Origin: a virus
IMG/VR virus record: IMGVR_UViG_3300020195_000088
Coordinates: 1-36,733 of that record
DNA length: 36,733 bases
Reading direction: 5' to 3' (one strand)
Of this stretch, positions 2 through 36,123 are shown in pieces; the stretch's first letter is position 1; each line of letters begins with the position of its first letter. The notes under the pieces are model-generated. The model was not told the DNA's origin, made no database searches, and saw only the letters and a program-made list of their open reading frames with translations. A program made the position numbers and the translations under genes.

Positions 2-127
2 AATGGAGCAGTGGCCTGGTCCACTGAAATCGCAAAGGTGGCCAGCCAGTGTTCTCTTGTACGACTTCCGTACGCAGTTTCTGAAACCAGCGGAATGGAT
101 CTTCGCGACTTTTTTGGAGGCAGGTAG
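2..127 (+). pseudogene. C-terminal end of a Toprim-type primase frame, cut by a stop
   Basis: The frame starting at base 2 is open from the window edge to a TAG at 125-127. Its 41 residues end in VRLPYAV, then MDLRDFFGGR. In phage/plasmid primases the Toprim domain ends in an 'LP...GKDLRD' stretch and runs straight on into 'T-ADLL-LAD' and the D5 helicase part. Here the continuation (TYADLLRLAD) exists, but it lies in another frame about 260 nt downstream, at 387 onward. The gene therefore looks like one primase-helicase interrupted at this point, not an unrelated upstream gene. Upstream sequence is outside the window, so I cannot say whether the N-terminal primase domain is intact. The match to the Toprim end comes from motif memory, without alignment. 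Confidence 0.5.
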
Positions 128-386
128 ATGGGGTTCACTATACAGATGTCAGATGAACTGGGGTGCAACCGAATCCTAGCAGGGTATGGCGATGCGTGCC
201 TCGATCAAGATGACCAAGGTTTAAGTGGCGATTCCGACCGGAACCACACCAGTCGTTGCAGCACGAAAAGGCGGCCTTGATTGTGTTTTTGACGCCTAAA
301 CACAATCAGATGGCCCAATGCAACCTGTCAGCGGTTTCGGCATCCAAAATTATGGAAGATCTCGATCGATGATTGCATTCGTGCGA
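125..386 (+). other. Intervening segment splitting the primase reading frame; possible intron or insertion
   Basis: This segment separates the primase frame ending in FFGGR (to 124) from its apparent continuation TYADLL (from 387). All three forward frames carry stops soon after 124 (TAG 125, TGA 154, TAG 177), so simple read-through fails. A single-base error cannot explain it, because about 260 nt of unrelated sequence intervenes. The segment holds a long nested stem at 250-327. It also holds a 50-codon ORF at 128-280 that starts 7 nt after GGAGG (116-120) and resembles nothing I know. A self-splicing intron fits the size and position. A junction of 125/382 would give a group I-like U at the 5' exon end and G at the intron end, but I could not build a P3-P7 core. 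A small insertion or split gene remains possible. Confidence 0.4.
250..327 (+). other. Nested RNA-like stem inside the intervening segment
   Basis: Four nested helices can be drawn: CAG 250-252 with CTG 325-327; GTTGCA 255-260 with TGCAAC 319-324; GGCC 273-276 with GGCC 312-315; and a perfect 10-bp helix GATTGTGTTT 279-288 with AAACACAATC 298-307 closing a 9-nt loop. No T run follows, so it is not a simple terminator. The ATG at 318 lies in the second helix. The nesting suggests a folded RNA domain. The RNA class is not recognised. Confidence 0.5.
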
Positions 387-1919
387 ACATACGCGGACCT
401 GCTTCGGTTGGCCGATAAGGCGATGGTCGTTCCCAAAGACCCGAACGCGATCCTGCGACCAGCCGCCCTCGAAAGTGACGATGATCCACATCGTCTAGCC
501 AGGATCAACCTGGCCCGTTATGCAACGCTCGAGGAAGGTGGCAGCCTGCGATACTGGCGCGACGAATGGTACACCTGGAAGCTGAGCCGCGGCTGTTACC
601 GGAAGATCGGGATCGAGGAGCTGCGAGCGAAGGTCAGCCAGTCAATCAAAGCCGAGTTCGATCGCATCAATATCGAGCAGCAGGAGAATCCAAAGGGCGA
701 CGAAGTGCCGCGAGCCCAAAAGGTAACCAAGGCCCTAGTCACGAACGTGGTCGACGCAATGAAGAGCATAACCATTATCCCCTCGTCAGTTGAGCAAATG
801 TCGTGGCTCAGCGGCGGCCTTCGTGAGCGTCTCAATTATGTGGCCATGCGAAATGGCATCCTCAATCTCGATCGCTTGATCAACGATGACGACGCCGATT
901 TTGACGATGTCATGCTGCCACACTCGCCTGATTGGTTCTCGACCGTGCGGCTGCCCTACGACTTTGACCCAGAGGCCGTCTGTCCTCGCTGGGATGCGTT
1001 CTTGGAAAAGAACCTTCAAATGGACCCCGAGCGGATCAAGCGACTCCAGGAGTGGGCTGGCTATCTGCTGCTGCCCGATACGACACAGCAGATGTTCCTG
1101 GCTCTGGAAGGCGAAGGGGCCAACGGCAAGTCGGTCTACATTGCCGCCATGACGGCCATGGTAGGCATTGAGAATTGCTCGAGCATTTCCGTGGAGTTGC
1201 TGGGCGACAAGTTCTCACGCACTCAAACGATCGGCAAGCTGGTCAATATCTGCCCGGATGCTGGAGAGATCGACAAGACCCGTGAGGGTGATTTCAAGTC
1301 GTTCGTCTCTGGCGACGTGATGTTCTTTGACCGCAAAAACCTATCGGGCCTGATCTGCACACCGACGGCCAGGATGATGATGGCCTTCAATACCAGGCCA
1401 CGATGGGCCGACAAATCGAACGGAATCTGGCGCCGCATTCTGAACGTTCCGTTCAAGTTTATCATCCCCGAGGCAGAGCGAGTTAAGGGCATGGATCAGT
1501 ACAAATGGTGGAACGAAAGCGGCGAGCTTCCGGGCATTCTTCTGTGGGCTATCGGTGGCCTATTTCGGCTTCGCAAGCAGGGGCGATTTACTGACTCTGA
1601 AGTGGGTGACCGAGCCAGGGAAGAATGGCGTACCGAGGACAATCCAGCACGTGATTTCATTGGCGAGAACCTCGAACCGCACCACAATTCGGTGCTCAAG
1701 TCATCGGCGCTTTACAAGTTCTACAAAACATGGGCTGACTTGAACGGCTACCGGCCACTAGGCGCGGGCGCCTTCGGGCGAGAGCTCAGCAGGCTGTTCA
1801 CGGACTGCAACCGAGTGCAGAGAGGCGTCCGGGGTGATCGCTATTGGTGTTACGAGGGTATCCGTTTCACCCAAGACGAGATCTGTGGAGTGCGGACAGC
1901 GGAGAGTGAAGTGTACTAA
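318..1919 (+). CDS. D5/P4-family phage primase-helicase, helicase part
   Basis: This is a superfamily 3 helicase of the D5/P4 phage-plasmid primase type, which would unwind DNA at the phage replication fork. The N-terminal part (about residues 40-160) resembles the D5_N region, including DDPHRLAR. Walker A is GEGANGKS, with Lys at residue 271. An acidic Walker B-like PDAGEID lies near residue 315. The sensor/arginine-finger stretch FNTRPRWADKSNGIWRR is typical of the family. At 533 aa it has the helicase but lacks the Toprim or prim-pol domain expected upstream, and that domain seems to end at base 124. ATG 318 is the longest start. ATG 369 has GGAAGA at 354-359 and may be the true start if this part is made alone. 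If the RNA is spliced, neither start is used. Helicase family call is firm; the start is not. Confidence 0.85.
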   Translation: MQPVSGFGIQNYGRSRSMIAFVRTYADLLRLADKAMVVPKDPNAILRPAALESDDDPHRLARINLARYATLEEGGSLRYWRDEWYTWKLSRGCYRKIGIEELRAKVSQSIKAEFDRINIEQQENPKGDEVPRAQKVTKALVTNVVDAMKSITIIPSSVEQMSWLSGGLRERLNYVAMRNGILNLDRLINDDDADFDDVMLPHSPDWFSTVRLPYDFDPEAVCPRWDAFLEKNLQMDPERIKRLQEWAGYLLLPDTTQQMFLALEGEGANGKSVYIAAMTAMVGIENCSSISVELLGDKFSRTQTIGKLVNICPDAGEIDKTREGDFKSFVSGDVMFFDRKNLSGLICTPTARMMMAFNTRPRWADKSNGIWRRILNVPFKFIIPEAERVKGMDQYKWWNESGELPGILLWAIGGLFRLRKQGRFTDSEVGDRAREEWRTEDNPARDFIGENLEPHHNSVLKSSALYKFYKTWADLNGYRPLGAGAFGRELSRLFTDCNRVQRGVRGDRYWCYEGIRFTQDEICGVRTAESEVY

Positions 1920-3180: not shown

Positions 3181-3738
3181 ATGGCTGCTCAACAGTCTAC
3201 GCGCCGAGGTCCGAAGGTAATAGATCTCACCGGGCACATTTACGGTCGATGGACCGTTATCGAATTTGCTGGGTTGGATGGATCGGGAATTCGTCAATGG
3301 AAGTGCCTTTGCCAGGGCTGCCAGCGGATATTCATTCGGACTGGCAATTCACTCAGGACAGGACATTCAACGAAATGCGCCGAATGCTCCAGGGTTGAGG
3401 CTGGCTTTGATGGCATAAGTCACGGTCATTCTCCGAGGTCTGGAATGAGTGTTGAGTATCGCACGTGGAAAGGCATGCGAAATCGTTGCAGTAAGCCAAA
3501 CCCTTGGAATTATCGCTACTACGGCGGCCGCGGCATTCAAGTTTGCGAGCGTTGGCTTCACTCGTTCGCGAATTTCTTAGCCGACATGGGGCCAAAACCG
3601 AGTCCGCAACACTCAATTGACCGCATTGACAACGATGGCAATTACGAGCCCGGCAACTGTCGTTGGGCGACCAGGATTGAGCAGGCGAACAACAAGCGAC
3701 GAGCCGCCACTAGCCAGAAACAGCTTGACGCCGACTGA
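3181..3738 (+). CDS. HNH/AP2-type free-standing homing endonuclease
   Basis: A 185-aa protein of the phage AP2-HNH endonuclease type. The N-terminal part (about residues 15-75) has the 'G..YGRWTVIE...W.C.C..C' pattern of the AP2-like DNA-binding/zinc region. The C-terminal part carries the family signature: YYGGRGIQVCERW, then SIDRIDNDGNYEPGNCRWAT, which ends in the asparagine and arginine/tryptophan residues of the HNH core. Such enzymes nick or cut DNA and spread themselves or a nearby intron to empty alleles. ATG 3181 follows GAGG at 3169-3172. The gene is free-standing and ends before the 3811 terminator. It could act in trans on the interrupted primase site upstream, but that link is speculation. 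Confidence 0.75.
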   Translation: MAAQQSTRRGPKVIDLTGHIYGRWTVIEFAGLDGSGIRQWKCLCQGCQRIFIRTGNSLRTGHSTKCAECSRVEAGFDGISHGHSPRSGMSVEYRTWKGMRNRCSKPNPWNYRYYGGRGIQVCERWLHSFANFLADMGPKPSPQHSIDRIDNDGNYEPGNCRWATRIEQANNKRRAATSQKQLDAD

Positions 3739-3810
3739 TTCAACTTCGTAGACTTACTGGCGACGCAGCAAAACTTATCGTGGCCTGAAAACCACACCAG
3801 TACCCGAAAG

Positions 3811-3877
3811 CCGGGCATTGTCTGCATCGAGCCCCTGAAAAGGCCCGATGCGAGCGATGTCCGGTTTTTTTGTTTTT
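3811..3877 (+). terminator. Strong extended intrinsic terminator
   Basis: CCGGGCAT 3811-3818 pairs with ATGTCCGG 3857-3864 (one G-U pair). After a 5x5 internal loop, GCATCG 3824-3829 pairs with CGATGC 3846-3851, and GCC/GGC closes an 8-nt loop. Seven Ts (3865-3871) and five more (3873-3877) follow. It separates the replication/HNH block from the accessory genes. The reading frame start at 3848 lies inside this hairpin, so that start is unlikely. Confidence 0.85.
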
Positions 3878-34669: not shown

Positions 34670-35470
34670 CTACTCGATTGCCGGCGGCCGGGGCTTGGAA
34701 ATCCCTAGCTGGGCCTGGTCGATATAGTGCTTTTCGGCCAGGCCGTGCGTTTTGTGGCCGAGATAGTCTTTGGCCGACCCCGGCCGCTCGCGTTCGCAAT
34801 GCGTGGCCCCGGAACGGCGAAGCCACTTGATTGAGCCAGGTAGCTTGGCGGCCAGCAGCAAGTCACCAAACTTTTCTTGCAACCGCCGGATGCGCAGCGT
34901 GTCGAAGCGGCGAACCTTCGAGAATGCCACCAGTGCGTCGGCGGATAGCTGGCACGCCACAACTTCTCCGGTTTTGCGCTGCGCCGTCACCACCATGCAG
35001 TCGCGTAATTGGTCGGCATTCAGCGCGAGCAAATCACTGAGACGCAAGCCCGTTTCGTAACCGACCAAAATGAACGCTCGCCAATAATCCGGCCTTCGTG
35101 ACTTCGCCGCGAACTCCAAAAGCCGCCGCAATTCAGGCAGCGTCCACGCTCTCGGCAGCTTAGTTGGCACGCGGACTTTTCGCACGCGGCATGGCGCCGG
35201 TATCAGCCCGCCTTCGGCCGCAGCCCGCCAGACGACAAGCAGAATCCTGCGATAGGTGTGGATTGTCGATCGGTCTAGCTGGCCCGCCAAGAGATCACCA
35301 AGCCAGTCATTGACCAGCTCATGAAACAGATCGTTCAGGCTTGCCGTGCGATCCAGTGACCGCTCGAAGCTCGCAATAGCGTACAGGATCACATTGGCGG
35401 AACTGGTGACCAAGCCATGTTCCAGCGCGTACTGGCCGGCAAAGGCACGCAGAGAAATTGGGGCGATCAT
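34670..35470 (-). CDS. int: Tyrosine site-specific recombinase (integrase)
   Basis: A 266-aa phage-type tyrosine recombinase that would integrate and excise the phage. A core-binding SAM-like domain spans about residues 10-90, and the catalytic domain about 105-255. Arg143 lies in YETGLRLSDLL. Lys166 is in QRKTGE. The HxxR box reads KWLRRSGAT, so Arg218 is kept but the usual histidine is Lys215. His239 is in LGHKT and the nucleophile Tyr249 in EKHYID. All but one of the expected residues are present. It reads leftwards, away from tRNA-Leu(CAG) 157 nt from its start, which fits integration near that tRNA. Confidence 0.85.
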   Translation of the reverse strand: MIAPISLRAFAGQYALEHGLVTSSANVILYAIASFERSLDRTASLNDLFHELVNDWLGDLLAGQLDRSTIHTYRRILLVVWRAAAEGGLIPAPCRVRKVRVPTKLPRAWTLPELRRLLEFAAKSRRPDYWRAFILVGYETGLRLSDLLALNADQLRDCMVVTAQRKTGEVVACQLSADALVAFSKVRRFDTLRIRRLQEKFGDLLLAAKLPGSIKWLRRSGATHCERERPGSAKDYLGHKTHGLAEKHYIDQAQLGISKPRPPAIE

Positions 35471-35583
35471 CGAAGCCGTCAGGCGTCCTGAATCGTCGCA
35501 CTCCGAGCGATCCTATGCGGAAAACCCCGCATTTCCTGCCACGGCCATAAATACCCTGCCGCGTAGGCACATGCAAGACCCCC

Positions 35584-35599
35584 GCGCTAGCCTCAGGAG
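35584..35599. repeat. Partial copy of the tRNA-Leu anticodon arm; candidate att core
   Basis: The 16 bases at 35584-35599 match 35652-35667 in the tRNA (anticodon arm, ending CCTCAGGAG) in 15 of 16 positions; the single change is T for C. It lies between the integrase start and the tRNA. A 15/16 match at this distance is unlikely by chance. It may be an attachment-site core or a scar of an earlier integration. The rest of 35471-35627 holds a weak hairpin, ATGCGG 35515-35520 with CCGCAT 35527-35532. Confidence 0.5.
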
Positions 35600-35627
35600 A
35601 ATTTGCCTAGACAACGGAACATTACCC

Positions 35628-35711
35628 GCCCGGGTGGCGGAATTGGCAGACGCGCCAGCCTCAGGAGCTGGTGGCCGTAAGGTCGTGCAGGTTCAACTCC
35701 TGTCCCGGGCA
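35628..35711 (+). tRNA. tRNA-Leu(CAG)
   Basis: 84 nt. The acceptor stem is GCCCGGG 35628-35634 with CCCGGGC 35704-35710, discriminator A at 35711 and no encoded CCA. The anticodon loop is CTCAGGA between CCAGC and GCTGG, giving anticodon CAG. There is a long variable arm, as leucine tRNAs have, and the T arm contains GGTTCAACTCC. The intact gene may be host-derived (an integration target) or carried by the phage. Confidence 0.95.
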
Positions 35712-35755: not shown

Positions 35756-35784
35756 TTGACGAATCGTATGGTATTCCCTATATT
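35756..35784 (+). promoter_or_regulatory. Repressor promoter with overlapping operator
   Basis: -35 TTGACG 35756-35761, a 17-nt spacer, and -10 TATATT 35779-35784. The 12-mer GGTATTCCCTAT (35770-35781) overlaps the first 3 nt of the -10 box; ATTCC 35773-35777 and GGAAT 35788-35792 form a dyad. The start of transcription is expected near 35791, at the ATG itself. It probably drives and autoregulates the XRE gene. Confidence 0.7.
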
Positions 35785-35790
35785 ATAGGA

Positions 35791-36054
35791 ATGCAAGACG
35801 TGATGACCGACGAAGAAGCGAAAGCCAATATTGCTGCGAACGTGCGTCGATTGCGCGGGGACCGGAGCTTTGGGCAGATTGCCAAGGCATGCTGCACGGA
35901 TGATTGGCATGCCTACCCGGCTACAATTCAACAGATCGAATGTGGACGCCATCTTCCGAGTGCCGGCCTACTTGCGCGCGTTGCTGAAGCGCTTGGGGTC
36001 ACAGCGAATGATCTTCTTCGCGAGCCGCCGAAACGTGGTCGGCGAGCCTCTTGA
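35791..36054 (+). CDS. XRE-family repressor (CI-like), possibly leaderless
   Basis: An 87-aa protein with an XRE-type helix-turn-helix. IAANVRRLRGDRSFGQIAKACC is followed by the recognition part ATIQQIECGRHLPSAGLLARVAEALGVTANDLL. It has no C-terminal dimer or RecA-cleavage domain, so it is shorter than lambda CI. Its promoter places the transcript start near ATG 35791, so translation may be leaderless; ATG 35803 is an alternative, and GTG 35746 would lie upstream of the promoter and is rejected. Identical operators lie at its own promoter and at the promoter right after it (36091), so it likely represses both and controls the lysogeny switch. Confidence 0.75.
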   Translation: MQDVMTDEEAKANIAANVRRLRGDRSFGQIAKACCTDDWHAYPATIQQIECGRHLPSAGLLARVAEALGVTANDLLREPPKRGRRAS

Positions 36055-36062
36055 AATCGTAG

Positions 36063-36103
36063 TATTTTCCCTATTGACAAGCGCGTAGGGTATTCCCTAT
36101 GCT
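36063..36103 (+). promoter_or_regulatory. Rightward early promoter with two operators
   Basis: -35 TTGACA 36074-36079, an 18-nt spacer, and -10 TATGCT 36098-36103. GGTATTCCCTAT (36089-36100) overlaps the first 3 nt of the -10, exactly as at the repressor promoter, and TAGGG/CCCTA makes it a dyad. A third variant, TATTTTCCCTAT (36063-36074), abuts the -35. It drives the zinc-finger and pentapeptide genes to the right. Confidence 0.75.
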
Positions 36104-36123
36104 TCGTCCATCGTGATTGATGG

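Follow-up and report, generated by a model that had tools for sequence, protein, structure and literature searches.

The primase-helicase locus at the contig start

We analysed the whole of a 36,733-base linear virus record (hereafter, the window), base 1 of which is a contig end. Such a linear record may be a fragment, and the virus is probably a planctomycete virus. The locus under study comprises the following features.

2 to 127, plus strand: C-terminal end of a zinc-finger/Toprim primase half, truncated by the contig start and closed by TAG at 125-127, identified by tblastn to the related contig L013
125 to 368, plus strand: intercistronic segment, ~50% G+C against 61.6% for the window, without detected homolog
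128 to 280, plus strand: orphan 50-aa ORF, starting in a TAGATG at the Toprim stop behind GGAGG at 116-120, weak coding score
250 to 327, plus strand: hairpin with an 11-12 bp core (TGATTGTGTTT/AAACACAATCA), from folding and a tile survey
369 to 1919, plus strand: helicase half (D5_N and DUF5906), second cistron, from profile matches, in a frame open from 300

Translation of frame 2 from base 2 yields NGAVAWSTEIAKVASQCSLVRLPYAVSETSGMDLRDFFGGR, followed by the TAG at 125-127, and the C-terminal end of this frame (2-124) reads LVRLPYAVSETSGMDLRDFFGGR, i.e. it finishes in ..DLRDFFGGR. This stretch aligned by tblastn with the Toprim C-terminus of L013 at 45-46% identity (E 1e-4 to 1.7e-6) and retains the family motif LPYxV..DLRD without a frameshift. 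The Toprim label is based mainly on position, on a weak profile match of L013 (PF13362, E 0.007, under the cut-off) and on PHROG primase matches. Most of the Toprim half lies outside the record, the contig starting at base 1, and its remainder was not found in a search across the rest of the contig. A strong inverted repeat (CAGTGG..CCACTG, z -4.5) occupies positions 1-78, within the Toprim coding sequence at the extreme contig start.

The helicase half is unbroken across 516 codons, with conserved motifs present and good codon scores. It belongs to TIGR01613 (phage/plasmid primase, P4 family C-terminal), scoring 151 bits against a cut-off of 108.7, and also exceeded the cut-offs of DUF5906 (53.9 vs. 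27.6) and D5_N (27.6 vs. 22.4). Its frame had been thought to resume at 387; instead it opens sooner, at 300, contains in-frame ATG codons at 318 and 369, and runs to 1919. ATG 369 closely matches the start position of the free-standing helicase of another relative, L012 (see below). The predicted nearby HNH endonuclease gene is real (3181-3738; PHROG 374, E 1e-58) and follows the helicase gene at a distance of ~1.3 kb. Between it and the next gene, a long hairpin with a T run after it (3784-3870, z -4.8) is likely a terminator or structured RNA.

The gap between FFGGR and TYADL measures ~260 nt, with a stop straight after the former and a new ATG ahead of the latter; stops are also present in frames 1 and 2 of the segment. 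G+C content is about 0.50-0.53 in the Toprim tail and the segment, and codon scores of both are poor. Within the segment, the GGAGG seven bases upstream of the start of ORF 128-280 makes a good ribosome-binding site. The codon score of this ORF is -0.14 per codon, against a 5th percentile of 0.15 among genuine genes, and the genuine Toprim tail scores equally poorly (-0.12). ORF 128-280 matched no Pfam or PHROG profile and had no relatives in viral contigs, phages, or the loci of the relatives, and DNA similarity to the segment was likewise absent from phages and relatives' loci. It is possible that the ORF is a small inserted gene or the remnant of one.

The junction and breaks of the same gene in relatives

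Single-protein searches found no relatives. Alignment-based searches of viral contigs and planctomycete genomes recovered viral relatives at 41-53% identity together with planctomycete genome copies, and none above 53%. A single ORF spans the junction in ~30 relatives (viral and planctomycete contigs), the Toprim C-terminus passing straight into the helicase linker, and in almost all relatives the ORF is laid out as zinc-binding primase domain, Toprim-like region, and helicase. At the family junction, "LPYxV..HGKDLRDWxxxGH" runs straight into "TxxDLxxLA" in the same frame, as in L013 (LPYDVTETHGKDLRDWISAGY-SWADLQQLAG), L014 (LPYEIRADHGNDLRDYFSDGH-TRADFDQLV), and L017 (LPYAITENHGKDLRDYFADGH-SWADFEAL). 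The window residues LPYAVSETSGMDLRDFFGGR and TYADLLRLAD fit this junction, with a linker one residue shorter. Since ~30 relatives join the matching residues in frame, we infer that FFGGR and TYADL were adjacent in the ancestral protein. The direct joining of both halves in aligned uninterrupted homologs bears out the original prediction that the two frames are halves of one primase-helicase. Its fallback, a split gene that had lost part of the linker, was right about the split and wrong about the loss, as nothing conserved is missing. The window thus does not encode a fused zinc-finger/Toprim primase-helicase in one ORF; a gene that is contiguous in relatives consists here of two ORFs, the second with its own start, as in other split phage genes.

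Breaks in this gene were also evident among the relatives. In L012 (51% identical), the helicase is a separate gene starting MHTYADLL, at the same break point as in the window; its start codon shares a TAATG with the stop codon of the DNA methyltransferase gene in front of it, and the Toprim half falls outside the contig. The gene is unsplit in L093, the strongly supported sister of L012, and on the 34-row tree 4 changes are needed to account for the split state, which makes independent breaks probable. In L017 (4351-4632), the break lies inside the Toprim region and is caused by an 88-aa ORF (PHROG 13902, function unknown) that fits closely between the stop and the ATG at which the second half begins. 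In L107/L108 (1853-4085), the helicase N-terminal domain is interrupted by ~2.2 kb of several small ORFs, with no Rfam intron at gathering threshold, and the second half again has its own ATG. L165 was considered as a further split and left uncounted, as it may be only a frameshift in the assembled genome. An odd arrangement of another kind occurs in L110 (2314-4086), where a tape-measure-like ORF continues in frame into the helicase, with the look of a chimeric assembly. Because L012, L017, and L107/L108 are broken while the gene is nearly always whole in the sampled Planctomycetia genomes, splitting is recurrent but uncommon, and wherever the filler is readable it is protein-coding. In addition, plasmid homologs encode the helicase as a free-standing gene, which shows that this domain can be encoded alone.

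Alternative explanations for the interruption

The original prediction favoured a small self-splicing intron or an unknown intervening RNA. We considered such an intron in the form of a group I or group II element, reduced or divergent, or of an unknown ribozyme, its removal from the mRNA yielding one polypeptide. Several observations accord with it, namely that homologs join FFGGR to TYADL with all conserved residues kept, that ~260 nt is the size of a minimal intron, and that frame-keeping joins obeying the group I rule (exon-final U, intron-final G) exist, e.g. U125 to U382, although such joins arise easily by chance. The T4 td, nrdB, and nrdD group I introns likewise interrupt conserved replication or nucleotide genes with the coding sequence kept; these, however, have a group I core, and none was detected in the window segment. 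A permissive Rfam scan of 60-450 (391 bases) to E = 10 returned no intron and a chance microRNA as the sole match, nor was there an intron match at gathering threshold, whereas the T4 nrdD group I intron, run as a positive control with the same tool, scored 105 bits. We found neither a P3-P7-P8 core nor a match to RF00028, and a scan of the segment for the GACTA-type group I R/S core element was negative. Rfam gave no group II match either, and of the group II hallmarks (GUGYG at the 5' end, a domain V hairpin and AY at the 3' end) the first is absent, the segment starting UAGAUG.

Folding told the same story, the whole segment being no better than its dinucleotide shuffles (z -0.48). The predicted structured stem at 250-327 does exist as a hairpin (-26.5 kcal/mol, z -2.87) but is unexceptional, 13 of 940 same-length window tiles being at least as extreme, and its exact pattern had no match in viral contigs. 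A homologous segment is absent from phages and from the relatives' loci, where the breaks in the same gene are occupied by protein genes. The second half, moreover, carries its own in-frame ATGs. With no Rfam match, no excess folding, and no core element, we consider the intron very unlikely. It is likewise very improbable that the segment is an unrecognised minimal RNA, self-splicing or otherwise removed, that belongs to neither of the known intron groups I and II; nothing positive points to a divergent ribozyme in the segment.

Another possibility is that mutational damage produced the stop and the spacer, the primase gene being a decaying pseudogene of a defective (pro)virus. The lower G+C and poor codon scores of the Toprim tail and segment would suit such decay, as would a linear virus record that is possibly a fragment. 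Against this stand the whole helicase half, with its conserved motifs and good codon scores over 516 codons, the frameshift-free Toprim tail with its LPYxV..DLRD motif, and the seamlessness of the break, which involves neither deletion nor frameshift; we therefore regard decay as unlikely. Chimerism of the first few hundred contig bases would equally explain a feature at the extreme contig end, adjoining the 1-78 inverted repeat, and the related contig L110 does appear chimeric. Yet a random chimera is not expected to bring the right family tail, in the right order and orientation, exactly to the right junction, which makes an assembly artefact extremely improbable. Finally, ribosomes might bypass the segment to make one polypeptide, in the manner of T4 gene 60 hopping, as a stop codon immediately follows the take-off region and all conserved residues are retained. 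The known ribosomal bypass spans 50 nt, which ~260 nt greatly exceeds, and no landing codon that would match the take-off codon AGG occurs in the helicase frame from 300 to 387, so the chance that bypassing operates here is close to negligible.

Probable division into two cistrons and comparable systems

The locus is likely explained by ordinary gene fission into two cistrons, split at the Toprim/helicase linker. The halves are homologous to parts of one protein and adjacent in relatives, a stop and a new start separate them in the window, and relatives carry analogous splits. We propose that a single gene for a zinc-finger/Toprim primase and a superfamily-3-type helicase was divided at the interdomain linker. 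The first cistron would end just past the Toprim domain, at TAG 125, and the second would restart at its own ATG before TYADLL, most likely 369 (or 318). The free-standing helicase would be translated separately, probably from the same transcript as the Toprim half, and the two polypeptides may continue to act together as primase and helicase. The spacer of ~240 nt could be an inserted small gene, possibly ORF 128-280, or its decayed remains. Gene fission is weakened by this ORF's lack of relatives and poor coding statistics, and by the position of the Toprim half, which falls almost wholly outside the contig here and is likewise off the contig in L012.

By analogy, the split would resemble a kind already known in other phages (T4-like). 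Gene 43 (DNA polymerase) of Aeromonas phages 44RR and 25 is split into 43A and 43B, the halves being parted by untranslated intercistronic sequence or by a seg endonuclease gene, and those of phage 25 co-purify with polymerase activity present (PMC2988022). The window shares with this case a replication gene that forms two cistrons where relatives have one, divided apparently by an untranslated spacer or, in a relative, by an inserted gene. On the other hand, gene 43 encodes a DNA polymerase, whereas the window encodes a primase-helicase in an unrelated virus, with a spacer ORF that is possibly coding. For phage Aeh1, PMC2988022 (citing Friedrich et al. 2007) describes nrdA as split by mobE, a gene for an HNH homing endonuclease, and the split NrdA enzyme as functional. 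Here too a conserved phage gene is parted into coding regions by inserted DNA, but the Aeh1 gap holds the endonuclease gene while that of the window lacks one, its HNH gene lying downstream of the helicase. A Pseudonocardia plasmid (L003) has, like the window, a D5_N/DUF5906 helicase as a gene of its own; its partner is a separate primase/polymerase gene, whereas the partner in the window is the tail of the same fused gene.

Across this one set of related viruses, breaks in the primase-helicase gene fall at three different points, one of which, a codon separating the Toprim from the helicase domain, was broken twice. The filler differs each time, being a methyltransferase gene in one case, a small phage gene or several small genes in a row in others, and a short orphan spacer in the window. 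The window split, taken with those of its relatives, gives no grounds for proposing a new intron class. The family is instead a usable natural series of how phage replication enzymes tolerate splitting, and it could also address whether domain linkers are preferred gene-insertion sites.

Further features were noted towards the other end of the record. A tyrosine-recombinase-like ORF on the minus strand (34670-35711) adjoins a tRNA-Leu (CAG) gene, a pair that possibly represents the attachment site of a temperate virus. A small HTH-repressor-like ORF (approximately 35803-36053) lies within 35770-36110, a region in which operator-like motifs (TATTCCCTA) are repeated on both sides of the ORF. The tile survey located the strongest fold across the window in the tile at 36076 (z -5.6).
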